A stretch of DNA of 49,502 nt from a virus. This document shows, piece by piece, positions 33,358-49,502 of this stretch (positions within the stretch are counted from its first letter, which is position 1; every line of letters begins with the position of its first letter). The notes under the pieces are model-generated. The model saw nothing but the letters and a program-made list of their open reading frames with translations, was not told the DNA's origin and searched no databases. A program made the translations under genes and the position numbers. The DNA lies in the IMG/VR virus record IMGVR_UViG_3300009155_002539, positions 1-49,502 of that record; one strand, written 5' to 3'.

Positions 33358-36300
33358 ATGAATTTAATAAATGAAGCAAACAAACCAAAAGTAACTAAAA
33401 CAATAGTTGTTTATGCGGGTAGATTTCAGCCTTTTCATAAAGGACACTATGCTGCATATCAACATTTAGTATCTGAATTTGGTTCCGGTAATGTTTATAT
33501 TGCAACATCGAATGATACATCTTCGGATAAATCTCCATTTTCATTTAATGAAAAGAAAGAAATTGCAACTAAAATGTTTGGAGTACCATCGACTAAATTT
33601 GTAAAAGTTAGCAATCCATACAGACCTATGGAACTACTTAAAAAATTTGATGGCAAAGATACACAATATATTGCTGCCGTAGGTGAAAAGGATGCTGATA
33701 GATTAAATGGTAAATATTTTAAACCATATAACGGGAAAGCCGGATATGGTTATGATGAAATTGGTTACACATATCCAATACCTGGAGAAGAAAATCCAAT
33801 AAGTGGGACACAAGTTAGAAAAGGATTGGGAAGTGATGATAAAGAAAAAGCTAAAAAGTTTTTTCTTAAAGCGTATCCAAAATTCGATAAAGATATTTTT
33901 AAAATGATAACATCAAAATTAAATGAAGGATTTCCAGGTGGTATAGGAGTTGGATTAGATTTACCAGGTGGATATATTAACGGAGCTCCAACAGGTTCAG
34001 TAGATGAAACAAATAATACACAACCTTCATCAAAAATGAGACCAGAACCACATCCTACAAGACATGAAACGGAGCATCCATCAGATGAACCAGATTGGCA
34101 TAAAAAGAATGAACCATATGACCCTATTTCAGAAATAGTAGAAAGATATATTACAAATGAAATGTTTGAAGAATTTGCTAAACAATATTTTGGTGAAGCA
34201 CCTAATAAAGCATTAGATAGAGATATAACATATACAAATTCAAAAGGAAAATCAACTAAAATTAAAGCTAGAGATGCTTTAAGATTACCAAAAGAACATC
34301 CTGCACATATTCAAGCAGCAAAAATAGTTGGACCATCGGATGCACCGGCAAATGAACCAAAACCAAAAGAACAACCTGGAAAAGCAGCAACTCAAGCAGC
34401 AAAACCAGCTGAACCTGGCCAACCAACAAAAAAAGGTCAAACACAACAAGGGAAAATAGATAAGGAAACTGGAACATCTGCTCCTGGAGAAAAAGGACAA
34501 GAACAAGGCCCCCCACCTGAACAAAAATTAGGAGGTGGTGAATTAAAATCCGATGCTGAAAAATCTAATATAGATAAAATTAAAGAAAAGGCTGCAGAAA
34601 TAGCTAAAGAAGCAAAAAGAAAATGTGAAGATATAATCAAAGATTTTTCAGAAGAAGAACAACATGAAGTACACGAAACAACCAACCCACATTCCGAAAC
34701 AAGAAAAGAGTGGACTCAAAAAATTGGTGATTTTATTTCAAATCTTCCAAAAAATATAGCAGAAAAAGTATATGAAGTTGTAAAACAAAAATACCACCAA
34801 CTAAAAAATACAGGTAGAGGCCTAAAATCTTTGGCATTATCAACAATGTATACCGGTAAACCACAATTTGGTTGGTTTAAAGATAAAGATGGACAATACA
34901 AATATAGTGAGCATGAGGAAAAAAGACAAAGAAAAGCGTGTATTTCAACTCTTAAAGATGTAGCGGTAATAGGGGCATCGGTTGTAGTAGGTGCAGCAAT
35001 TGCAGGAGCAAGTGGAGCAGCAGTAGCTGGAAAGGGTATTGGTGGTATTATCCACGCTGCGACTCATGGTGCAGCTCATTCGGTATCAAGCGTTGGTGGA
35101 TTTTCAGCACATGCAGCGATTGATTTCGCAAAACATTGCGGACTAGAAGCAGTTGGATTGGCAGCGGGTGAGGGACATGTCGAAGCACAAGTTGGTGCAG
35201 GCGTTGCTGGGTTAGGACATATGGCGCTTAAAGGTATGGGATTAATGGAAGAAATGGATGAAACAAAGGCACATGGTGATATGTTTATAAAATTAGTTGC
35301 AGATGTTGTTAAAAAAATGGAAACATTTGAACCAAATCCTCAACAATTATTAAAAACATTAGAATCTTATAAAAAACAAAAAGAAGTTTCAAAATTACAA
35401 AATATTACAAAAGGATTAAATGAAAACATTTCAGAAACTAAACAAAATTCAATTCAACATTTTGTAGAATTTGCAACTAAACGATTAAAATTAAAAGAAA
35501 CGCCAAAAGTTAATTTAATTACAGGTAGAGATTTTGCAGAAGTAAAAACAAGTTTAGGTGGGTATAATCCAGATGATAAATCTATATATGTAGCAATCGA
35601 AGGTAGATTAACCGCTGATATTTGTAGAACTCTTGCACATGAAATGGTTCATAGAAAGCAAGATGAAATGGGATTAGTTAGAAATGTTAATAAAGATGGA
35701 GCGGATGGTTCACCAATAGAAAATCAAGCACATGCAGTTGCAGGAATTCTAATGAGAGAATATGGTAGAGTTAATAAACAAATTTATCAAGAAGCACACA
35801 CAGCATATAATCACGTACCTGTAAGTAAGGCGGATAAGGATTTTACAAATAATCACAAATTCGATATAGGAATAAAAGCAGATGATGATACGATTGATTT
35901 TGATGGCAAAGGTGGATATCAAAAGGTGGAAGATATTAATGTAGATGTTGATAAGGGAGATACCGTCTTAATGGGAAAATTTAAAAACAAAAAAGTTGTT
36001 GTTAAGGATTTTGGAAAAGATGACCATGGAATGCCAACAATAAATGGTAAAGTAGCAACTACATTTAGAATGGATAAGAAAGGGCAGAATATATACGAAA
36101 TGGGAAGTAAAGATGTCCATTTTAAAAATGTTGTAAAGTATTTTGATAAAGGAGGACCTAACATTAAAAAACAAGTTAGTTTAGTAGTTTGTGGAAGTAA
36201 AAAACCAAATAGAGATGAAATAGTTGGAAGTTTAAGGGATATGGGATATGAAGAAATCACATCAATTGAAAAAAGATTAGGTATAGAAGATTTATTTGAA

Positions 36301-37776
36301 AAAAAAAATCTAAAAGAAGTTAGTTTAAACACATCCGAAGATGGTTCACCTGACGGTGGATATGTTCCAAAAGGTAAAAAAAGAGTATTAGACGGACAAG
36401 ATGGTATAAACAAACAAGAAGATTGGTATACAAATGGTGGATATACACAAACCGAATTTCCAACAGCAGATGCGATATTTGGAGATGAAGATGGTGAAGA
36501 AAGAACTATTAGATATACAATTAAAAATCTTCCTGATGTTGATTATGTAGAAACGGATTTTATTAAAGAAGGTTTATTAATGGAAGGTGGTGCATATGGT
36601 CATATGAGCCATCCATTTGATGATATGGATTTAACTTTTGGTGATTTAAAAGATATTATTACAAAAGCATTAGAAGGAGATTTAGGTGTAGTAAGAGAAA
36701 AAACTGATGGACAGGCTTTGGCAATAAGTTGGAAAAGTGGTAGATTAATCGCAGCTAGAAATAAAGGAAATTTAGCAAACGCTGGAGCAAATGCAATGGG
36801 TATCGAAGATGTTGCATCAAAGTTTGCAGGTAGAGGTGGTTTAACTGATGCATATAATTTTGCTATGAGAGATTTATCAGCTGCAATACAATCTCTTTCG
36901 GAAACTCAAAGAAAAAAGATATTTAACGAAGGAAAATGTTTTATGAATTTGGAAGTAATCTGGCCTACATCGGTAAATGTTATTCCTTACGGACAAGCTT
37001 TATTAATATTTCATAATACAACTTGTTATGATGAGAAAGGAAACGCAATTGGTGCAGACCAGGGTACAGCAAGAACATTAGCTGGTATGATTAAACAAGT
37101 TAATGCAGATGTTCAATCTAAATATACAATTCAAGGCCCGCCGGTAACTGAAATACCAAAATCATCAGATTTGGCATCTAAAAAAGGAAAATATCTTTCA
37201 AAATTAAATAAAGTACAAAATGAATTTGGTTTAAAAGATAGTGATAATGTTTCAGTATATCATCAAACTTGGTGGGAAAATTTTATTGATACAAAAGCAC
37301 CATCAAAGGTTGATAAAATGACAAAAGAATCATTAGTTAGAAGATGGGCGTTTGGAGATAAATCATTTCGTTTAAATACAATATCAAATCCTAAATTACA
37401 GGATTGGGCGGTTGAAAACGATAAAGTAAATGTTATAAAACAACAAAAAGAAAATATCAAACCATTTGAAGAAATATTTTTAGGAGTTGGTGCAGATGTA
37501 TTAGAATTTGTTGGAAGTGTATTGACTGTTCATCCAGATAAAGCCATTCGTTCAATGAAAGAGAAATTAAAATCAGTTGCAAGTCAGGTAAGAGATTCTG
37601 GAAGTCCGGCCCAAATACAAAAATTAAAACAAGAATTAAATAGATTAAATCAATTGGGTGGTATTGATAAAATAGTTGCAAATGAAGGATTAGTATTTTT
37701 TTATAATGGTAACACATATAAACTTACTGGTACATTTGCACCTCTAAATCAAATACTTGGTATTTTTTACGAATAA
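33358..37776 (+). CDS. Giant multidomain protein: HIGH nucleotidyltransferase, zincin peptidase, ligase-type nucleotidyltransferase
   Basis: 1472 residues in one frame. Residues 15-190 are an NMN/cytidylyltransferase-like domain: GRFQPFHKGH (21-30, H27 and H30) and ISGTQVR (148-154). A Pro/Lys/Glu/Gln-rich linker spans about 210-430, and an Ala/Gly-rich hydrophobic segment about 535-640. A zincin motif HEMVH (761-765) with a possible third ligand E788 (ENQAHA) follows. The C-terminus (about 1085-1472) has ligase-superfamily motifs: REKTDG (K1115 nucleophile, D1117, G1118), the AARNKGN motif, MNLEVIWP, EGLVFFYNG (E1443) and YKLTG (K1455). The order I-III-IV-V matches Rnl2-type ligases, with a long insertion between III and IV. 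Virion or RNA/DNA-repair role unknown. Confidence 0.8.
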   Translation: MNLINEANKPKVTKTIVVYAGRFQPFHKGHYAAYQHLVSEFGSGNVYIATSNDTSSDKSPFSFNEKKEIATKMFGVPSTKFVKVSNPYRPMELLKKFDGKDTQYIAAVGEKDADRLNGKYFKPYNGKAGYGYDEIGYTYPIPGEENPISGTQVRKGLGSDDKEKAKKFFLKAYPKFDKDIFKMITSKLNEGFPGGIGVGLDLPGGYINGAPTGSVDETNNTQPSSKMRPEPHPTRHETEHPSDEPDWHKKNEPYDPISEIVERYITNEMFEEFAKQYFGEAPNKALDRDITYTNSKGKSTKIKARDALRLPKEHPAHIQAAKIVGPSDAPANEPKPKEQPGKAATQAAKPAEPGQPTKKGQTQQGKIDKETGTSAPGEKGQEQGPPPEQKLGGGELKSDAEKSNIDKIKEKAAEIAKEAKRKCEDIIKDFSEEEQHEVHETTNPHSETRKEWTQKIGDFISNLPKNIAEKVYEVVKQKYHQLKNTGRGLKSLALSTMYTGKPQFGWFKDKDGQYKYSEHEEKRQRKACISTLKDVAVIGASVVVGAAIAGASGAAVAGKGIGGIIHAATHGAAHSVSSVGGFSAHAAIDFAKHCGLEAVGLAAGEGHVEAQVGAGVAGLGHMALKGMGLMEEMDETKAHGDMFIKLVADVVKKMETFEPNPQQLLKTLESYKKQKEVSKLQNITKGLNENISETKQNSIQHFVEFATKRLKLKETPKVNLITGRDFAEVKTSLGGYNPDDKSIYVAIEGRLTADICRTLAHEMVHRKQDEMGLVRNVNKDGADGSPIENQAHAVAGILMREYGRVNKQIYQEAHTAYNHVPVSKADKDFTNNHKFDIGIKADDDTIDFDGKGGYQKVEDINVDVDKGDTVLMGKFKNKKVVVKDFGKDDHGMPTINGKVATTFRMDKKGQNIYEMGSKDVHFKNVVKYFDKGGPNIKKQVSLVVCGSKKPNRDEIVGSLRDMGYEEITSIEKRLGIEDLFEKKNLKEVSLNTSEDGSPDGGYVPKGKKRVLDGQDGINKQEDWYTNGGYTQTEFPTADAIFGDEDGEERTIRYTIKNLPDVDYVETDFIKEGLLMEGGAYGHMSHPFDDMDLTFGDLKDIITKALEGDLGVVREKTDGQALAISWKSGRLIAARNKGNLANAGANAMGIEDVASKFAGRGGLTDAYNFAMRDLSAAIQSLSETQRKKIFNEGKCFMNLEVIWPTSVNVIPYGQALLIFHNTTCYDEKGNAIGADQGTARTLAGMIKQVNADVQSKYTIQGPPVTEIPKSSDLASKKGKYLSKLNKVQNEFGLKDSDNVSVYHQTWWENFIDTKAPSKVDKMTKESLVRRWAFGDKSFRLNTISNPKLQDWAVENDKVNVIKQQKENIKPFEEIFLGVGADVLEFVGSVLTVHPDKAIRSMKEKLKSVASQVRDSGSPAQIQKLKQELNRLNQLGGIDKIVANEGLVFFYNGNTYKLTGTFAPLNQILGIFYE

Positions 37777-38493: not shown

Positions 38494-39141
38494 ATGAAAA
38501 AATTATTAAATTTAAAAAACATTGCAATTGCAGTTTTAATTGCAATTATTTTATTAGAGTATTTTAATCCAGGTGGTAAAATGCCAGGAAGAACCATTAA
38601 AATTGATGGAAAAAAATACGAAGTTATTAAACATGAAATAGACACTGTCGAAGTTGTAAAAACAAAAACTTTAACTAAAAAAGGAGCAGATATTATACAT
38701 GAAGTAATTCTACATGATACGGCAATTAGACTAGTTGATGTGGACACAGCGGCATTATTACATGATTATTTAGCAAAATATATCTACAAAGATACATTAC
38801 ATTTACCAGATAGTTTAGGTGAAGTTTCTCTTATAGATACAATTACAAAAAACAAAATTTTAGGTAGAACCTTCAACGCAAAAGTAAAGCAAAGAGAAAT
38901 TAAAGAAACTTTAATTGTTAAAGAATTACCTAAAACTCAAGTATATTATGGATTAACTGGTGGATTTAATAAAGCAGATGTGGTTTCAAATTTAGGTGCA
39001 GGATTATTAATCAAAACTAAAAAAGATAAAATCTATAATTTGGGTGTTGGTATTTCTAATAGAGTAACCGATGGAACTAACGGAACATTATCTCCATATA
39101 TCGGTGGTGGTGTATATTGGAAAATAAAATTTAAAAAATAA
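38494..39141 (+). CDS. Membrane-anchored protein with beta-rich C-terminus
   Basis: This 215-residue protein starts with a positively charged cap (MKKLLNLKN) and a single hydrophobic helix at about residues 10-24, a probable inner-membrane anchor with the rest in the periplasm. Residues 45-150 are mixed and charged. The last 65 residues alternate aromatic/Gly strands (YYGLTGGF, LGAGLLI, YNLGVGIS, YIGGGVYWKIKF) like outer-membrane beta hairpins. This could suit a one-piece spanin for lysis or another envelope protein; no lysis motif is diagnostic. Overlaps the terminase start by 1 base (TAATG). Confidence 0.65.
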   Translation: MKKLLNLKNIAIAVLIAIILLEYFNPGGKMPGRTIKIDGKKYEVIKHEIDTVEVVKTKTLTKKGADIIHEVILHDTAIRLVDVDTAALLHDYLAKYIYKDTLHLPDSLGEVSLIDTITKNKILGRTFNAKVKQREIKETLIVKELPKTQVYYGLTGGFNKADVVSNLGAGLLIKTKKDKIYNLGVGISNRVTDGTNGTLSPYIGGGVYWKIKFKK

Positions 39142-40751
39142 TGTCTGTTCAAGGGCAACCTAAAAAGTCATTAAAAGAGATAATAGCTGAAGAATTTCGT
39201 AAATGTGCGGGAGACCCGATATATTTTATGAAAAAATATTGTATAATTCAGCATCCGGTGAGAGGAAAAATACCCTTTCACCTTTATCATTTCCAGGAAG
39301 ATTGTTTAACAGACTTCAAAGATAATCGTTTTAATATTATTCTTAAATCTCGTCAGTTAGGGTTATCAACTCTTTCTGCGGGATTTATACTTTGGAAGAT
39401 GTTGTTTAATCAAGATTTTAACGCATTGGTTATTGCAACAAAAGTGACTGTAGCAAAGAATCTGGTAGAGAAAGTAAGAGTTATGCACGACTTACTTCCT
39501 ATTTGGTTAAGAGATGGTAGTAATAGTTCGGTAGAAGATAATAAACTTTCTCTTAAATTAAAAAATGGTTCACAAGTAAAAGCAATCGCATCTTCTCCAG
39601 ATGCAGGACGTTCTGAAGCCCTATCCCTATTAGTTGTGGATGAGGCGGCGTTCATTAGAGATATTGATGAAATTTGGTTATCAGCACAATCTACATTATC
39701 AACGGGTGGTTCTGCAATTGTATTATCTACTCCAAATGGTGTGGGTAACTGGTTCCATAAAATGTGGGTAGAAGGGGAAAGTGGAAGTAATGGTTTCAAT
39801 TGTATCAATCTTCATTGGACTGTTCATCCAGAAAGAAATCAGGCATGGAGAGATGAACAAACTCGTATTTTAGGAGTTAAAGGAGCGGCACAAGAATGTG
39901 ATTGTGACTTTGTTGGTTCCGGTGATACCGTCATTGACCCTGAATTACTAATGTGGTATAAAGATACATATGTGATGGACCCTGTCGAAAAAGTTGGATT
40001 TGATGGTAACTATTGGAAATGGGAACATCCTAACTACAATCGAAACTATATGGTAGTTGCCGACGTAGCTAGAGGTGATGGTTCGGATTATTCTACATTT
40101 CAGGTAATTGATATTGAAGATAGTTCACAAGTTGCCGAATATAGAGGTAAAATCGAAACAAAAGATTTTGGTAATTTTTTAACAGCGGTAGCAACCGAAT
40201 GGAATAACGCACTTTTAGTAGTAGAAAATTCAAATGTTGGTTGGTCAACTATACAAACTATTATAGATAGAGGATATGGAAATCTATTCTATATGAGTAA
40301 TGATTTAAAATATATTGATGTTGAAAAACAAATGTCTAATAAATTTTATAGAGACGAAAAGAAAATGATTGCAGGTTTTAGTACGACTTCAAAAACTAGA
40401 CCATTAATTATATCAGCATTGGACACCTATATGACAGATAAAGATATTCTAATTCGTTCACAAAGATTGATAGATGAAATGTTTACTTTTATTTGGAGTG
40501 GTGGTAGAGCCGAAGCTATGAAAAGTTATAATGATGATTTAATTATGGCATTAGCAATTGGATTGTGGGTTCGTAATACAGCACTTCGTTTAAAGCAAGA
40601 AGGGATTGATTTAACTAAAAGTATGTTAAACTCTGCTCATGTAAATAAACATTCTGGACTATATACAGCACATAGTCATTTAAAAGATAATCCATATGAA
40701 ATGAATGTAGGTAGAGGTGAAAAAGAAAACTTAACTTGGTTAATTGGTTAA
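39141..40751 (+). CDS. 17: Terminase large subunit (gp17-like)
   Basis: The 536-residue DNA-packaging motor protein has an N-terminal ATPase with SRQLGLST (70-77, Walker A-like), VVDEAAF (165-171, Walker B with catalytic Glu) and the LSTPNGVGNWF coupling motif. The C-terminal RNase H-fold nuclease shows ADVARGDGSD (D308), a VENSNVG strand and YNDD (D465, D466). This is the T4 gp17 layout; T4's is somewhat longer (610). It docks on the portal at the prohead and cuts concatemers. It comes directly after the membrane protein and is followed, after a late-motif copy, by a small conserved gene and the portal. No intein or intron. Confidence 0.95.
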   Translation: MSVQGQPKKSLKEIIAEEFRKCAGDPIYFMKKYCIIQHPVRGKIPFHLYHFQEDCLTDFKDNRFNIILKSRQLGLSTLSAGFILWKMLFNQDFNALVIATKVTVAKNLVEKVRVMHDLLPIWLRDGSNSSVEDNKLSLKLKNGSQVKAIASSPDAGRSEALSLLVVDEAAFIRDIDEIWLSAQSTLSTGGSAIVLSTPNGVGNWFHKMWVEGESGSNGFNCINLHWTVHPERNQAWRDEQTRILGVKGAAQECDCDFVGSGDTVIDPELLMWYKDTYVMDPVEKVGFDGNYWKWEHPNYNRNYMVVADVARGDGSDYSTFQVIDIEDSSQVAEYRGKIETKDFGNFLTAVATEWNNALLVVENSNVGWSTIQTIIDRGYGNLFYMSNDLKYIDVEKQMSNKFYRDEKKMIAGFSTTSKTRPLIISALDTYMTDKDILIRSQRLIDEMFTFIWSGGRAEAMKSYNDDLIMALAIGLWVRNTALRLKQEGIDLTKSMLNSAHVNKHSGLYTAHSHLKDNPYEMNVGRGEKENLTWLIG

Positions 40752-44321: not shown

Positions 44322-44918
44322 ATGCCATCAGTATCAAAAGCACAACAACGATTTATGGGTATGGTTCATGCCGCTCAAAAGGGTGATATGGAAAATCCAT
44401 CGCCAGAAGTTAGTAAAGCGGCAGATTCAATGAGTGATAAAGATGCCAAAGATTTTGCATCTACATCACACGATGGATTGCCTGATAAAAAAGAAGAGCG
44501 TATCAACAAACTTAAAGAAATCATTCGTAATATGGTTAGAGAAAGAATGATTGATGAAATGAATACAACTGGTGGTGTAGAAGGATATAATACTCCTTTT
44601 GCATTTAGTGGTAAAGATAGTGAAAAGAAAAAAGGAAAAAAACAAGCAGACTTAACAGGCTATACTGTCGTTAATGAAAATCGTTGGTTAGAATTAAAAA
44701 ATGAAGAAGCAAGTGCACAGGCTAAAATTGGTAGAGGTATATCTAATATCAATAAGCAATTAAGAGAAATGGAAAGATTTCTTAATTGGTATGGTAAAAT
44801 TAAGAATGAAAGTGGTGTAAATAATAAAAGTTATTGGAAAAGAACAAATAATCATATTTATAGTATACAAGAAAGATTATTAAAATTAGACCAAAAAATC
44901 AGACAAATTTCAGAATAA
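44322..44918 (+). CDS. DUF3008-domain protein
   Basis: Residues 1-57 match the DUF3008 family: SKAQQRFMGMVHAAQKG, then VSKAADSMSDKDAKDFAST and HDGLP. That family is widespread in phages and has no known function. Residues 58-198 carry a helix (RINKLKEIIRNMVRERMIDEM) and a charged coiled-coil end. The KLKEIIRNMVRE segment echoes the N-terminus of the next protein (ELKELIRQVVKE), suggesting a shared assembly signal. Ends with a 1-base overlap to the EF-hand gene. Confidence 0.8.
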   Translation: MPSVSKAQQRFMGMVHAAQKGDMENPSPEVSKAADSMSDKDAKDFASTSHDGLPDKKEERINKLKEIIRNMVRERMIDEMNTTGGVEGYNTPFAFSGKDSEKKKGKKQADLTGYTVVNENRWLELKNEEASAQAKIGRGISNINKQLREMERFLNWYGKIKNESGVNNKSYWKRTNNHIYSIQERLLKLDQKIRQISE

Positions 44919-45211
44919 TGAAAACATCAGAATTAAAAGAACTTATTCGTCAGGTAGTTAAAGAAGAAAGTGACTATCAAGAATTATTTAAACATATGTT
45001 AGATAGAACAGGTAAATCTATTCCTGATATGTCAGATGATGAAAAAGCAAAATTCTTTCAAGCAGTGGATAAAGCTGCAAAAGCAAAAACAGAAGGAAGA
45101 TTGAGAGGATATAATGAGGCAGAATTAACTGCAGGTCAAAAAAAAATTGATACTGATGGTGATGGTGAAATTGAAGGTTCAGATTTAGCAGCATTAAGAA
45201 ATAAAAAATAA
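44918..45211 (+). CDS. Small protein with C-terminal EF-hand-like loop
   Basis: This 97-residue protein starts with MKTSELKELIRQVVKEE and ends with a calcium-loop pattern DTDGDGEIEGSD (residues 78-89; D78, D80, D82, E84 and D89 in the canonical positions 1, 3, 5, 7 and 12). Only one loop is present, so it may bind Ca2+ weakly, pair with a second copy, or resemble a dockerin-like half. It sits just before the prohead protease with a 1-base overlap. A capsid-core or maturation-linked role is inferred from place. The function is unknown. Confidence 0.75.
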   Translation: MKTSELKELIRQVVKEESDYQELFKHMLDRTGKSIPDMSDDEKAKFFQAVDKAAKAKTEGRLRGYNEAELTAGQKKIDTDGDGEIEGSDLAALRNKK

Positions 45212-45801
45212 TGAGTAAAGGATTATTGATAGAAACGCATTTGTTTGAAGCAAAACTTCAACAAGAAGAAAATGGAACTTATTTAGTTAAGGGAATTCTT
45301 CAAAGAGCAGGTGCTGCAAATCAAAATGGTAGAAGATATCCTAAAGAAATTTTAATGAGAGAGTGTGAAAAATACGGCCAACTTATTAAAGAACGTAGAG
45401 CTTTGGGTGAATTAGACCATCCTGAATCTCCGGTTATTAATTTAAAGAATGTATCACACAACATTAGAGAAATTTTTTGGGAAGGTGATGATGTTTGTGG
45501 TGTAGTGGAAATTCTTTCAACACCATCAGGAAATATCTTAAAAGAATTATTAAAAAATAATATTCGTTTGGGTATTTCATCTAGAGGATTGGGTTCAGTA
45601 AAAGAATTAAGAGATGGGACTGTAATGGTTCAGGAAGATTTCGAATTAGTGGGTTGGGACTTTGTATCTAATCCATCAACACATGGGGCATTTATGGCAC
45701 CAATGAATGAATTAAAAGAATGGAAACAAATAGCAGAAGAATGTGGTAAATGGTGTAAAGCACAAGATTTAATGAGAGAAATTATAATTGAATTAAATTA
45801 A
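45211..45801 (+). CDS. 21: Prohead core protease (gp21-like)
   Basis: This 196-residue serine protease (T4 gp21/U9-S80 family) has GELDHPE with catalytic H70 and GISSRG with a serine at 123-124, about 50 residues apart as in the family. It cleaves scaffold, core and capsid propeptides within the prohead. T4 gp21 is slightly longer. It has no leader beyond MSKGLLIETHLFEAK. The gene begins in the stop of the EF-hand gene. The scaffold and major capsid genes further downstream are its expected substrates; candidate L-x-E cleavage sites are visible in several proteins here. Confidence 0.92.
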   Translation: MSKGLLIETHLFEAKLQQEENGTYLVKGILQRAGAANQNGRRYPKEILMRECEKYGQLIKERRALGELDHPESPVINLKNVSHNIREIFWEGDDVCGVVEILSTPSGNILKELLKNNIRLGISSRGLGSVKELRDGTVMVQEDFELVGWDFVSNPSTHGAFMAPMNELKEWKQIAEECGKWCKAQDLMREIIIELN

Positions 45802-45805
45802 TAAA

Positions 45806-46054
45806 ATGAAATTAGTAAATTTAATACCTGGTAAAGAGATTACAAAAGAAGATTTGGAAGATATGGATACTGCTTTACCGGCACAAGTTGATAGATTTTT
45901 AGAAAGATTAGTGGCTCAAATAAGAAATTACAATTTGTCAAGAAAAAAAGAACAATTAGTAATTGCTAAAATTATCGATTCATTAGGATTGGATAAACAA
46001 CAATTAATGCAAGCGGTTTCAAAGATTAGAAAAAACGATATTTTAAAGAAATAG
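45806..46054 (+). CDS. Small head-cluster protein, 82 aa
   Basis: An unrecognised 82-residue, helical, charged protein. Its start MKLVNLIPGKEITKEDLEDMD resembles the start of the protein at 40785 (MRLINLIPLKEME), the only clear similarity between the two. The rest has no motif. It lies 4 bases after the protease and 3 bases before the next gene. An L-x-E-rich N-terminus in a protein next to the gp21 protease would suit a prohead internal protein. Confidence 0.7.
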   Translation: MKLVNLIPGKEITKEDLEDMDTALPAQVDRFLERLVAQIRNYNLSRKKEQLVIAKIIDSLGLDKQQLMQAVSKIRKNDILKK

Positions 46055-46057
46055 TAT

Positions 46058-46486
46058 ATGATAAAGTTAAGAGATTTAATGAAAGAAAATGAAGAATTTC
46101 AACAATTGCCTTCTCAATTAAAGAAGCATTTTTTGGAAATCATTTCTACATATGGTCAATATAGAGAGCAAATGGGAAGAAAATCTGACATCAGACAAGT
46201 TGCTGAAACGTTAGGTGGTATTGCAGATGCAGCACAAGAATATACTTTAAGAGAAGGTGGTGACTGGTTTGATAGAGTTACTATTAAAAGAAATATGAAC
46301 GAACTTAAAAAGTTACAAGGTGCATTTGAAAAAGAAGCTGTTGAAGCGCAATCACAACAACAAAGATTAGATGCATTATATGAAGATATGGGACATGTAT
46401 TAGGAAGATATTTTGAAATAGCAGAAATATCCGAACAACAAATGAAAGAAAGATTGGGATTACAAGAATGTAAAACCTGTAAATAA
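46058..46486 (+). CDS. Hypothetical helical protein, 142 aa
   Basis: This 142-residue protein is mainly helical with MIKLRDLMKENEEFQQLPSQLKKHFLEIISTYG at the N-terminus and a terminal CKTC. Charged heptads in residues 70-130 suggest a coiled coil. The KLRDLMKEN start is a frequent style of head-region proteins in T4-like marine phages, which supports a structural role. The function is unknown. It is followed by the Dps-like gene after 8 bases. Confidence 0.7.
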   Translation: MIKLRDLMKENEEFQQLPSQLKKHFLEIISTYGQYREQMGRKSDIRQVAETLGGIADAAQEYTLREGGDWFDRVTIKRNMNELKKLQGAFEKEAVEAQSQQQRLDALYEDMGHVLGRYFEIAEISEQQMKERLGLQECKTCK

Positions 46487-47232: not shown

Positions 47233-48492
47233 ATGGCAAATTCAAAATTATTGAAGGAATCTATTGCCGATGCTAAAGCCGTTAAAGAAACTGCATTAGC
47301 TAACGCAAAAATCGCTCTTGAAGAAGCTTTTACTCCTAGACTTCAATCTATCTTATCTGCAAAGATGAGAGCAGAAGCAGAAGCACAGGATGATGAAGCT
47401 GAAAAAGTAGACGAAGAATTAACATCTACTGGTATTGGTTCAAAAGTTGATGCAGGTTATGCAGAAAACCCAGGAACACAACCAACATTAGATGCTAACA
47501 CAGACTTATCAGTTGGTGTTAAAAAAGACTCAGGTAAACCTGAACAAGCTGGTACTGACTATAAGAAAGTAGCAGACATTTCTGAAGAAGAAAATCCTTT
47601 CGGTGATGACCAAGAAAGTGACAAAGATGCAGAAATTGCAGAATTGAAAGCTAGATTGGCAGAATTAGAAGGTGAAGATTCTCAAGAAGAAAATCCTTTT
47701 GCACAAGGTGATGATTCAGAAGTAAATCCATTTGGACAAGAGACTGAAGAAGAAAACCCATTTGCACAAGGTGGTGATGACCAATTTGGCGGAGACGACC
47801 AATTCGGTGATGACAACAACGAAGATGATATGGACTTAGAAGCTATCATCAGAGAATTAGAAGCACAATTAGGTGGTGATGACCAAGAAGGTGCAGAAGA
47901 CGATACATATGGTGATGATTCAGCAGTTGCTGAAAATTTAGCAGATGGTTCTGAAGCTGGTACTGACAAAGGTGAAACACCAAAAGTTGTTGTAACTAAT
48001 GAAGCGGAAGAAGATTCTAAAGAAGATGACAAAGATGTTGTTGACTTAGAAGAAATCTTACGTGAAATGGAAGATGATATGAAAGGTGATGCAGAAGATA
48101 AGAAAGCTGACGAAAAAGACGCTGAATTAAACGAAGCTTACAAAACTATCAAATTCTTACAAAAAACAATTAACGAAGTTAACTTATTAAACGCTAAGTT
48201 ATTATTCGCTAATAAATTATTCAGAGCTCACAACATGACTAACGAACAAAAAGTGAAAGTGATTGAAACTTTGGATAGAACAAAATCAGTTAGAGAAGTT
48301 AAATTGGTATACTCTACATTAGCAGAGAATTTCAAATATTCATCATCTAACAAATCTACTAAAAAATCTATTTCTGAAGGAATTGCTAGTAAAGTAACAA
48401 AATCTACTAAACCAGCAGTATCTAAGCAAGTAATTGCAGAAAATACTCAAATTTCTAATAGATTTCAAAAGTTAGCAGGTATTATTAAATAA
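47233..48492 (+). CDS. 22: Capsid scaffold / prohead core protein (gp22-like)
   Basis: A 419-residue, strongly acidic protein. The N-terminal helix (KESIADAKAVKETALANAK) is followed by an acidic, low-complexity middle (about 100-270) with four repeats of E-NPF (near 119, 152, 164, 173). The C-terminal part has a helical LNEAYKTIKFLQKTINEVNLLNAKLLFANKLFRA stretch (about 300-333) that matches gp22-type scaffolds. Being acidic, abundant and adjacent to the capsid gene is typical. gp21 cleaves it to small peptides during maturation. Translation starts behind the AAGGA site; the capsid gene follows after 20 bases. Confidence 0.88.
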   Translation: MANSKLLKESIADAKAVKETALANAKIALEEAFTPRLQSILSAKMRAEAEAQDDEAEKVDEELTSTGIGSKVDAGYAENPGTQPTLDANTDLSVGVKKDSGKPEQAGTDYKKVADISEEENPFGDDQESDKDAEIAELKARLAELEGEDSQEENPFAQGDDSEVNPFGQETEEENPFAQGGDDQFGGDDQFGDDNNEDDMDLEAIIRELEAQLGGDDQEGAEDDTYGDDSAVAENLADGSEAGTDKGETPKVVVTNEAEEDSKEDDKDVVDLEEILREMEDDMKGDAEDKKADEKDAELNEAYKTIKFLQKTINEVNLLNAKLLFANKLFRAHNMTNEQKVKVIETLDRTKSVREVKLVYSTLAENFKYSSSNKSTKKSISEGIASKVTKSTKPAVSKQVIAENTQISNRFQKLAGIIK

Positions 48493-48512: not shown

Positions 48513-49502
48513 ATGGACATTAAAAAATTAATGACTGGCGCAAACCCACAAAGCGTAATGCTTGAACAAACTCGTGGTTTGAAAGCTAAATGGGAAAAAA
48601 CAGGCTTACTTGAAGGAGTAGGTTCTGAAACAACTAAGCATGGTATGGCAGTAATGTTAGAAAACCAAGCTAAACAATTATTAGATGAGGCTACAAGAAC
48701 AGGTACATCTTCTGGTTCAGAAGAGTGGGCTGGTGTTGCGTTACCTTTAGTAAGAAGAATCTTCGGTTCTATCGCAGCTAAAGAATTCGTTTCAGTTCAA
48801 CCAATGAACTTACCTTCTGGTCTTATTTTCTACATGGATTTCAAATATGGTACTCAAAACGACGCAAACAGACCAGCTTCTGGTTCTTCTATGTTCGGTA
48901 ATGGTGGTACTTTCGGTAAAGATAACTTATCTCCAGCAGGTAACAAATTGGGTTCTACTCAAGCTACTGAAGGTGGTCTTTACGGAGCAGGTAGATTCGG
49001 ATATACAATCAATGATGTAACTGCAGCAGTTACAGCAACTGTAGCTTCAGCTTCTGCATCTGATTTCTTAGGTAATGAAACATTATCTGCATCTTTTGCA
49101 GCTACAAGTGGTTCTCAAGCTTGGAGAAAAGTGACAGTAGGTTTACCTTCTAACGCTGATTATAATGCAGTAAGAGCATTTAAAGTTTCAGGTTCTACAT
49201 CTATAACTCATTTCCCTGAATTGACTACATTGAATACTTTAGGTTCTGCATCTTTCTTTTTATCAGCTTCAATCGATACAAGAGCAATTGTGGCAACTGA
49301 TTTTGTAACTCAAACTTTAGTTTACTCTAAACAACCTGATGATATCTCTAGAGGTGACTTTGAAGATAGAGGAACAGACTTAGCAATCCCAGAAATCGAA
49401 TTAGAATTGAAATCTGAACCAATTGTTGCTAAGACAAGAAAATTAAAAGCAATTTGGACACCGGAATTAGCTCAAGATTTAAACGCTTACCATAGTGTAG
49501 AC
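48513..49502 (+). CDS. 23: Major capsid protein (gp23-like), 3' end beyond window
   Basis: The reading frame runs from the ATG at 48513 to the window edge without a stop (330 codons). VRRIFGSIAAKEFVSVQPMNLPSGLIFYMDFKYG (about 80-113) and KTRKLKAIWTPELAQDLNAYH (about 308-328) match T4 gp23, the HK97-fold capsid subunit. Residues 1-59 are a likely propeptide, with LDE (57-59) as the candidate gp21 cleavage site before the mature start, comparable to T4 gp23 cleavage after residue 65. The leader is A-rich without a Shine-Dalgarno. It closes the T4-type order protease-scaffold-capsid. Confidence 0.95.
   Translation, partial: MDIKKLMTGANPQSVMLEQTRGLKAKWEKTGLLEGVGSETTKHGMAVMLENQAKQLLDEATRTGTSSGSEEWAGVALPLVRRIFGSIAAKEFVSVQPMNLPSGLIFYMDFKYGTQNDANRPASGSSMFGNGGTFGKDNLSPAGNKLGSTQATEGGLYGAGRFGYTINDVTAAVTATVASASASDFLGNETLSASFAATSGSQAWRKVTVGLPSNADYNAVRAFKVSGSTSITHFPELTTLNTLGSASFFLSASIDTRAIVATDFVTQTLVYSKQPDDISRGDFEDRGTDLAIPEIELELKSEPIVAKTRKLKAIWTPELAQDLNAYHSVD

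Follow-up and report, generated by a model that had tools for sequence, protein, structure and literature searches.

Gp21-type cleavage motifs at the domain boundaries of a large phage protein suggest a head-packaged polyprotein with an uncatalogued ligase-like domain

The stretch of viral DNA analyzed here, positions 1 to 49,502 of IMG/VR record IMGVR_UViG_3300009155_002539 (hereafter the window), is a 49.5 kb fragment of an aquatic T4-like phage, and genes were read only within it. One open reading frame (ORF) of the window, at 33358..37776 on the + strand, encodes a protein of 1472 residues that joins a HIGH-superfamily nucleotidylyltransferase, a small zincin-type metallopeptidase domain and a ligase-type nucleotidyltransferase. 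We propose that this protein is a head-packaged cargo polyprotein, which would be cut by a prohead protease of the T4 gp21 type and would deliver RNA-repair and nucleotide enzymes, and we put the probability of this reading at roughly 60%. The domain boundaries carry the cleavage motif of gp21-type proteases, an architecture that is well supported at the level of sequence and that lends support to an earlier guess, made in a sequence-only reading of this DNA, that the ORF encodes a polyprotein or an injected enzyme. From the motifs, we infer cleavage, packaging, ejection and an RNA substrate, as well as the enzyme activities themselves.

In T4, the prohead protease gp21 cleaves C-terminal to L/I-X-E, and internal proteins are directed to the head by an N-terminal peptide of 10 residues (PMC9026906). 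A candidate processing enzyme of this type is encoded in the window at 45211..45801 (+); it matches phrog_207 (2.9e-51) and aligns with T4 gp21 at ALGELxHP and GxSSRGLGS. Directly before its ligase domain, the polyprotein carries the tandem sites FIKE↓GLLME↓ (E1071 and E1076, 36562..36585, +; the arrow marks the candidate cut). After the removal of similar sequences, 39 distinct contexts directly upstream of the ligase domain were left, and in 37 of them an (L/I)xE motif ended exactly at the ligase boundary, versus a mean of 1.1% at other upstream offsets. The linkers before the ligase differ completely between relatives while (L/I)xE is retained.

Well-conserved (L/I)xE motifs of the 1472-residue protein end at E6, E190, E259, E631, E689/693, E714, E987 and E1071/1076. 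The first site, LINE↓A (33367..33375, +), would free a 6-residue N-terminal peptide and is an (L/I)xE in 40 of 46 aligned relatives, and the second, KLNE↓GFPGG at the end of the HIGH domain (33919..33927, +), is kept in 39 of 46. ISE at E259 (34126..34134, +) recurs in 41/44 aligned relatives, and GLME at E631 (35242..35250, +), which follows a hydrophobic stretch, in 32/35. The peptidase module starts at GLNE↓NISE (E689, 35416..35424, +), which matches FLRE↓STEK at the N-terminus of a standalone cyanophage protein. The HIGH core has no (L/I)xE before its closing site E190, and the ligase domain, 396 residues long, contains a single site of poor conservation. Across the family, 20% of local-alignment breakpoints, which are not independent of each other, lay within three residues of an (L/I)xE, versus 6% of random positions.

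Standalone relatives of two polyprotein modules clearly begin with peptides resembling the capsid-targeting peptides of T4. The protein gp332 of Synechococcus phage B23 is the zincin alone, starting with MNYKQFLRE↓STEKQ, and its relatives start with MLYKQFLxE↓S; T4 ipII and ipIII start with MKTYQEFIAE↓A, and T4 Alt with MELITELFDE↓D. A standalone ligase (LR756500/L086) starts with MKFLKSYEEFLNE↓NLILE↓GGSYGH. A module of two relatives, L036 and L048 (VERYADxEL...HFFDR), is found by itself in Flavobacterium phage immuto, where it follows MKKSQLRQIIKE↓AL. The same phage (L171/L173) encodes, at 107131-109854 of its record, a 907-residue protein annotated as NadR. This protein starts like a nucleotidyltransferase, has two HExxH segments and contains a HIGH-like domain with TLAE↓ in front of it, and it appears to be a further cargo polyprotein of this kind.

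At the start of complete ORFs of marine relatives stand targeting-like peptides, for example MNKLTRWLVETILAE↓APR, and the modules of these ORFs are shuffled between (L/I)xE sites. In one of them (L087), a P-loop kinase-like module, PolyA_pol (5.2e-31), PolyA_pol_RNAbd, HD and CTP_transf_like all precede the ligase, and P-loop kinases of the AAA_33/zeta type were found in L106, L135 and L165. The L087 polyprotein (L087:1-7221) has at least 2407 residues, its 5' end lying outside the locus, and also includes a hydrophobic module. A weak match to RegB, the T4 endoribonuclease, was observed at residues 931-996 of a freshwater polyprotein (L083:7983-13922), with an E-value of 0.0057, which is below the cut-off.

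The frame opens with ATG and runs through 1472 codons without interruption, as the sequence-only reading had it, and it is intact in a second contig (L005), which carries the entire ORF at 100% identity, and conserved in about 80 relatives. These relatives come from a scan of IMG/VR with the 1472-residue protein, which gave 430 candidate stretches encoding relatives; among the best 80, which were kept, most match the polyprotein end to end at 45-100% identity. A second search, with the form of Microcystis phage Mel-JY01 as the query, gave 304 further candidates, among them marine relatives, and 80 were kept. The Mel-JY01 version has 639 residues and consists of the first and last domains only, the LR756508 version has 919 residues, and LR756500 is the last (ligase) domain alone. 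We rejected an assembly artefact or a chance fusion: many independent contigs carry the fusion unbroken, and Mel-JY01 and LR756508 have its HIGH and ligase core in common with the window ORF.

The conserved blocks are residues 1-190, 690-910 and 1077-1472, the remainder being variable and missing from short forms. All the motifs from which the sequence-only reading had deduced three enzyme-like domains are present: GRFQPFHKGH at 21-30, ISGTQVR at 148-154, HEMVH at 761-765, REKTDGQ at 1113-1119, AARNKGN at 1132-1138, FMNLEV at 1195-1200, EGLVF at 1443-1447 and YKLTG at 1454-1458. They are not a product of chance, because the HIGH domain has matches in Pfam and PHROGs and because residues are invariant in divergent ligase and peptidase domains; motif invariance, models and family matches together support the three domains. 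The search of other phages for the same architecture, which that reading had suggested, yielded end-to-end relatives, short forms and module-shuffled marine forms.

The C-terminal domain (residues 1077-1472, 36586..37773, +) carries ligase motifs I (EKTDG, K1115), Ia (AARNKG), III (NLEV, E1199), IV (EGLVF, E1443) and V (YKLTG, K1455). In 50 divergent ligase domains, with identity down to 34%, E38, K39, D41, G42, R58, N59, K60, E123, E367, G368, Y378, K379, T381 and G382 (domain numbering) were invariant, and motif I read EK(T/L)DG with invariant K, D and G. The claim of a ligase-type C-terminus was thereby supported, with K-x-D-G, the motif III Glu, E-G and Y-K-x-T-G in order. The domain was modeled with a predicted local distance difference test score (pLDDT) of 86.7 and a predicted template modeling score (pTM) of 0.82. 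In a blind fold search of the PDB with this model, 17 of the top 19 matches were RNA ligases, of the Rnl1, Rnl2 and Rnl3 types, and the remaining two bore the title DNA ligase, with E-values that were weak throughout. In BFVD, the closest matches were family members named 'cytidyltransferase-like', followed by RNA ligases at an E-value of about 3e-3. Motif invariance, the model and the RNA-ligase fold matches support the predicted membership of the domain in the covalent nucleotidyltransferase superfamily.

The domain would resemble an RNA ligase in its workings, yet we assigned it to neither Rnl1 nor Rnl2. Motif III (FMNLEVIWPTSVNVIPY) aligns with its T4 Rnl1 counterpart, and a profile alignment (hhalign) with RnlA homologues placed KTDG on KEDG, NKGN on SKGS, and FMNLEVIWPTSVNVIPYGQALLIFHN on a stretch of RnlA, with only motifs I, Ia and III in the correct register with Rnl1. 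Reversed and unrelated controls scored below the ligase-RnlA comparison, and RnlA versus RnlB lower still. Filing under Rnl1 was rejected, the similarity to RnlA not being significant (P 0.054) and Pfam and PHROGs being blank. The Rnl2-type likeness seen in the sequence-only reading was not specifically supported: the comparison with Rnl2 gave a P of 0.09, motif I is EKTDG or EKLDG and not EKIHG-like, motif III aligns with T4 Rnl1, and the fold matches mix the Rnl1, Rnl2 and Rnl3 types. Rnl2 membership was rejected on the first two grounds, and is not favoured over the Rnl1 type. Scans of the domain against Pfam and PHROGs gave no match, and PDB profile searches with the ligase alignments returned only chance matches, such as ribosomal proteins. 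The ligase-like family, which is encoded in hundreds of aquatic phage contigs, is uncatalogued, with no Pfam or PHROGs model. Its spacing between motifs III and IV, 244 residues, is unlike that of typical RNA ligases. In two relatives (L036:7956-14456 and L037), a split intein divides the ligase gene precisely after the motif I Lys, in front of TDG: an N-intein that starts with CIAGDTIIHT closes the first half, a C-intein that ends in ILVHN↓TDGQ opens the second, and a separate 249-residue ORF, a possible nuclease, lies between the two halves.

Residues 7-190 (33376..33927, +) are recognizable by sequence as a HIGH-superfamily nucleotidylyltransferase. They match PF01467 with 23.1 bits against a gathering cut-off of 21, and the phrog_395 'cytidyltransferase' family with 3.7e-11; the HxGH and (I/V)SGTxxR motifs are conserved, with HxGH in freshwater forms and GPHH in marine ones. 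The sequence-only reading had likened this domain to nicotinamide mononucleotide (NMN) adenylyltransferases. Its place in the HIGH superfamily held, whereas the likeness to NMN adenylyltransferases is limited to weak PDB matches, such as 2qjt with an E-value of 0.0039 across 55 residues only. Both the synthesis of nicotinamide adenine dinucleotide (NAD) and other nucleotidylyl transfer are candidate roles.

Residues 690-812 (35425..35793, +) are predicted to be a small gluzincin, with HEMVH at 761-765 and E788 as the candidate third ligand. H761, E762, H765 and E788 (H71, E72, H75 and E98 in domain numbering) were invariant in 31 divergent peptidase domains. The metal-free model (pLDDT 88.8, pTM 0.85) has an HExxH helix (62-80 in domain numbering) followed by a helix (96-115) that starts near E788, and its fold matches are PprI/IrrE, abylysin, jannalysin, selecase and a DNA-protein crosslink repair protease, although in the Pfam scan of the domain no family reached its cut-off. 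That this peptidase releases the parts of the polyprotein, as was first suggested, appears unlikely. The AHE(M/L)xH zincin is absent from all 82 marine members, and no HExxH occurs in the 8 whose 5' ends are complete; nevertheless, the (L/I)xE↓GG junction is retained in 73 of the 82, and its motif fits the gp21-type protease of the phage. Self-processing is therefore disfavoured, and the zincin would be cargo rather than the processing enzyme.

The region between the HIGH and zincin domains (33928..35424, +) is a variable middle of low conservation, missing in short forms such as L030-L035; it includes a Pro/Lys-rich linker, a helix resembling a capsid-targeting sequence that ends in YFGE↓APN (about 258-282), and a hydrophobic Gly/Ala-rich stretch at residues 535-625. 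This stretch, at 34960-35232 of the window, has a different hydrophobic module as its counterpart in marine relatives, and a role at the membrane during ejection is possible. Past the zincin, residues 857-987 (35926..36318, +) form a small KOW-like module, VDKGDTVLMGKFKNKK...HGMPTINGK.ATTFR, with a tail that ends in NLKE↓V. In the marine polyproteins L106 and L135, this module comes after the N-terminal targeting peptide.

The polyprotein gene is followed by head genes. The terminase large subunit is encoded downstream at 39141..40751 (+), and among the polyprotein loci with enough sequence, 114 of 118 have the terminase gene on the same strand, at most 6 kb downstream. The gene order in the window, namely portal, small proteins, protease, scaffold and capsid, is the same as in T4. 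In the position of T4 gp22 lies an acidic scaffold-like protein with 13 (L/I)xE sites (47233..48492, +), and it is followed by the major capsid protein (48513..49502, +), which runs off the record. The capsid protein has an LDE at 48681-48689, in QLLDE↓ATRTG, which matches SFLTE↓AEIGG, the cut site of T4 gp23. Small proteins around the prohead protease (44918-46486) start with targeting-peptide-like sequences (MKTSELKELIRQVVKEES, MIKLRDLMKENEEF) and are possible counterparts of T4 gp67 and gp68. On the other side, about 17 genes lie between a tail fibre gene and the polyprotein (11130-33343), and several of them are of glycan type (a nucleotide-sugar epimerase, a radical S-adenosylmethionine protein and others), which suggests a locus for surface sugars or fibre decoration.

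Could the ORF be a polyvalent protein as Iyer et al. (2017) defined the term, that is, an injected multidomain effector that is cut by its own zincin or remains uncut, with (L/I)xE being incidental? Injected-type multidomain phage proteins with zincins, as well as processing by the zincin, have been proposed before (PMC5512222), and the window ORF carries a conserved zincin. However, the marine members keep the junction with no zincin, and the junction motif is that of a prohead protease encoded by the same phage, which makes this explanation improbable in our view. The protein might also be an ordinary intracellular enzyme, a fusion of NAD or nucleotide metabolism with an RNA ligase that is never packaged: T4 RNA ligase and polynucleotide kinase are normal cytoplasmic enzymes, and the fusion of a nucleotide-generating domain to a nucleotidyltransferase is metabolically plausible. 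In 114 of 118 loci, however, the gene lies in a block of terminase, portal, protease and capsid genes, its modules have standalone relatives that bear capsid-targeting-like peptides, and (L/I)xE is kept between wholly different linkers, so that we give this explanation a low probability.

The identity of the last domain allows more latitude, as all members of the covalent nucleotidyltransferase superfamily share motifs I, III, IV and V. The domain could instead be a DNA ligase, a guanylyltransferase that caps RNA or a nucleotidyl-protein transferase, with the healing of packaged DNA ends or the modification of host proteins as possible roles. This would fit the atypical spacing between motifs III and IV, and the fold list also includes LigD, capping enzymes and, at ranks 14-15, an Aquifex protein with the title DNA ligase. 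Still, RNA ligases dominate the top of that list while no capping enzyme stands above rank 20, motif III is Rnl1-like, and the modules linked to the domain in relatives are RNA enzymes; we hold an activity other than RNA ligation to be rather unlikely, though worth keeping in mind. That the domains are inactive enzyme folds reused as head or tail parts seems very improbable: dead enzyme domains do occur in some phage virion proteins, and the activities in the window are predicted, but the catalytic residues are invariant down to 34% identity, and the split intein in L036 and L037 interrupts the gene exactly after the motif I Lys, in keeping with the preference of inteins for catalytic sites. 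Several points weigh against a head-packaged cargo polyprotein with an RNA ligase. Cleavage and packaging are read from sequence motifs. The motif is short, and its count in the whole protein, 16 versus 12.5 expected from composition, is only a slight excess; because of this, the case rests on the position and conservation of the sites. Some lineages have no Glu at the junction (LLM↓GG, LLC↓GG), and with only 6 residues (MNLINE↓A) before the first site of the 1472-residue ORF, a targeting signal is not obvious. The PDB fold matches of the ligase are weak (E-values from 4.6e-3 at best to 0.54, global TM about 0.22-0.26), and the profile comparison with Rnl1 is not significant alone. Finally, the CCA-adding and HD modules occur in few relatives and are absent from the window, and transfer RNA (tRNA) is one of several possible substrates.

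According to the cargo reading, the polyprotein would be made late, alongside the head proteins, and taken into the prohead core of a T4-type capsid, where the gp21-type protease would cut after (L/I)-x-E and set free the HIGH nucleotidylyltransferase, the small gluzincin and the RNA-ligase-like adenylyltransferase. The freed enzymes would remain in the mature head and, as a ready repair or takeover kit, be ejected along with the genome. Related phages have a P-loop kinase, a CCA-adding enzyme or poly(A) polymerase, and an HD phosphohydrolase in this slot, and because of these modules the cargo is most likely a kit for RNA-end repair and nucleotides. It may act ahead of phage gene expression, for example by sealing tRNAs cut by host anticodon nucleases; RNA-end repair in T4-like and jumbo phages is a response to host RNases (PMC7824862). 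More tentatively, the virion could be pre-loaded with an RNA-repair and NAD/nucleotide kit, comprising the kinase, the CCA-adding enzyme, the HD phosphatase, an RNA ligase of a new family and the HIGH nucleotidylyltransferase on a modular polyprotein cut by the prohead protease, and injected so as to reverse tRNA cleavage or counter NAD-based defences ahead of any phage gene expression, a scenario that we regard as possible rather than probable.

If the cargo reading is true, a polyprotein that the capsid protease cuts serves tailed phages as a cargo rack, the contents of which are shuffled between lineages, and RNA repair is delivered with the DNA besides being made after infection. The ligase-like family defined here is uncatalogued and occurs in hundreds of environmental phage contigs. 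The analysis also offers a simple rule for recognizing injected cargo from sequence, namely (L/I)xE where modules meet. A new RNA-joining enzyme would be a possible practical use.

A search of the literature, with preprints and most subscription journals outside its reach, found no earlier description of a phage polyprotein of this sort, and parts of it resemble known systems. The ligase domain shares with T4 RNA ligase 1 (RnlA) the motif order K-x-D-G, R/K-x-K-G, N-x-E...P...V..Y and fold matches to 2c5u, 9do4 and 5tt6, and, as in the PseT-Rnl1 tRNA repair pair, P-loop kinase and phosphohydrolase modules are linked to the ligase in relatives of the window. Unlike RnlA, it has no significant sequence match to Rnl1 or Rnl2 in Pfam, PHROGs or the PDB, has a large helical insertion that separates motif III from motif IV, and is encoded inside a head-module polyprotein. 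The zincin resembles minigluzincins, IrrE/ImmA and SprT-like zincins in its HExxH helix followed by a helix with the Glu ligand, in its size of about 120 residues and in its fold matches to 8sln, 4jiu, 4jix and 6mdx. It differs from them in having no Pfam family above the cut-off, in being joined to a KOW-like module and in that its cyanophage relatives are standalone with a capsid-targeting-like peptide.

In the giant phages phiKZ and SPN3US, too, a gp21 homologue cuts many head and ejection proteins after Glu (PMC9026906); those cuts mostly remove propeptides, whereas the cuts predicted here would separate distinct enzymes. Like the polyvalent proteins, which are found in phages and conjugative elements (PMC5512222), the window ORF is very large, multidomain, zincin-containing and predicted to be injected, with RNA- or nucleotide-acting domains. 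Unlike in polyvalent proteins, however, its processing is most likely due to the prohead protease, with no need for the zincin; and while the 2H domains of polyvalent proteins were never seen associated with RNA ligases (PMC5512222), the ligase-type domain is the most conserved module of the window polyprotein. With the T4 internal head proteins IPI, IPII, IPIII and Alt (PMC9026906), the window phage shares the gene set and order 20-21-22-23, a gp21-type protease, (L/I)-x-E↓(A/S/G/N) sites and standalone module relatives with MKTYQEFIAE-like starts. The T4 proteins are single, with one N-terminal targeting peptide each, whereas the window phage strings several enzymes together with a site at each module boundary, and the modules of its family are exchanged between lineages. 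The prohead-protease sites between enzymes, together with the ligase family, are thus what differs here from both the T4 internal proteins and the polyvalent proteins.

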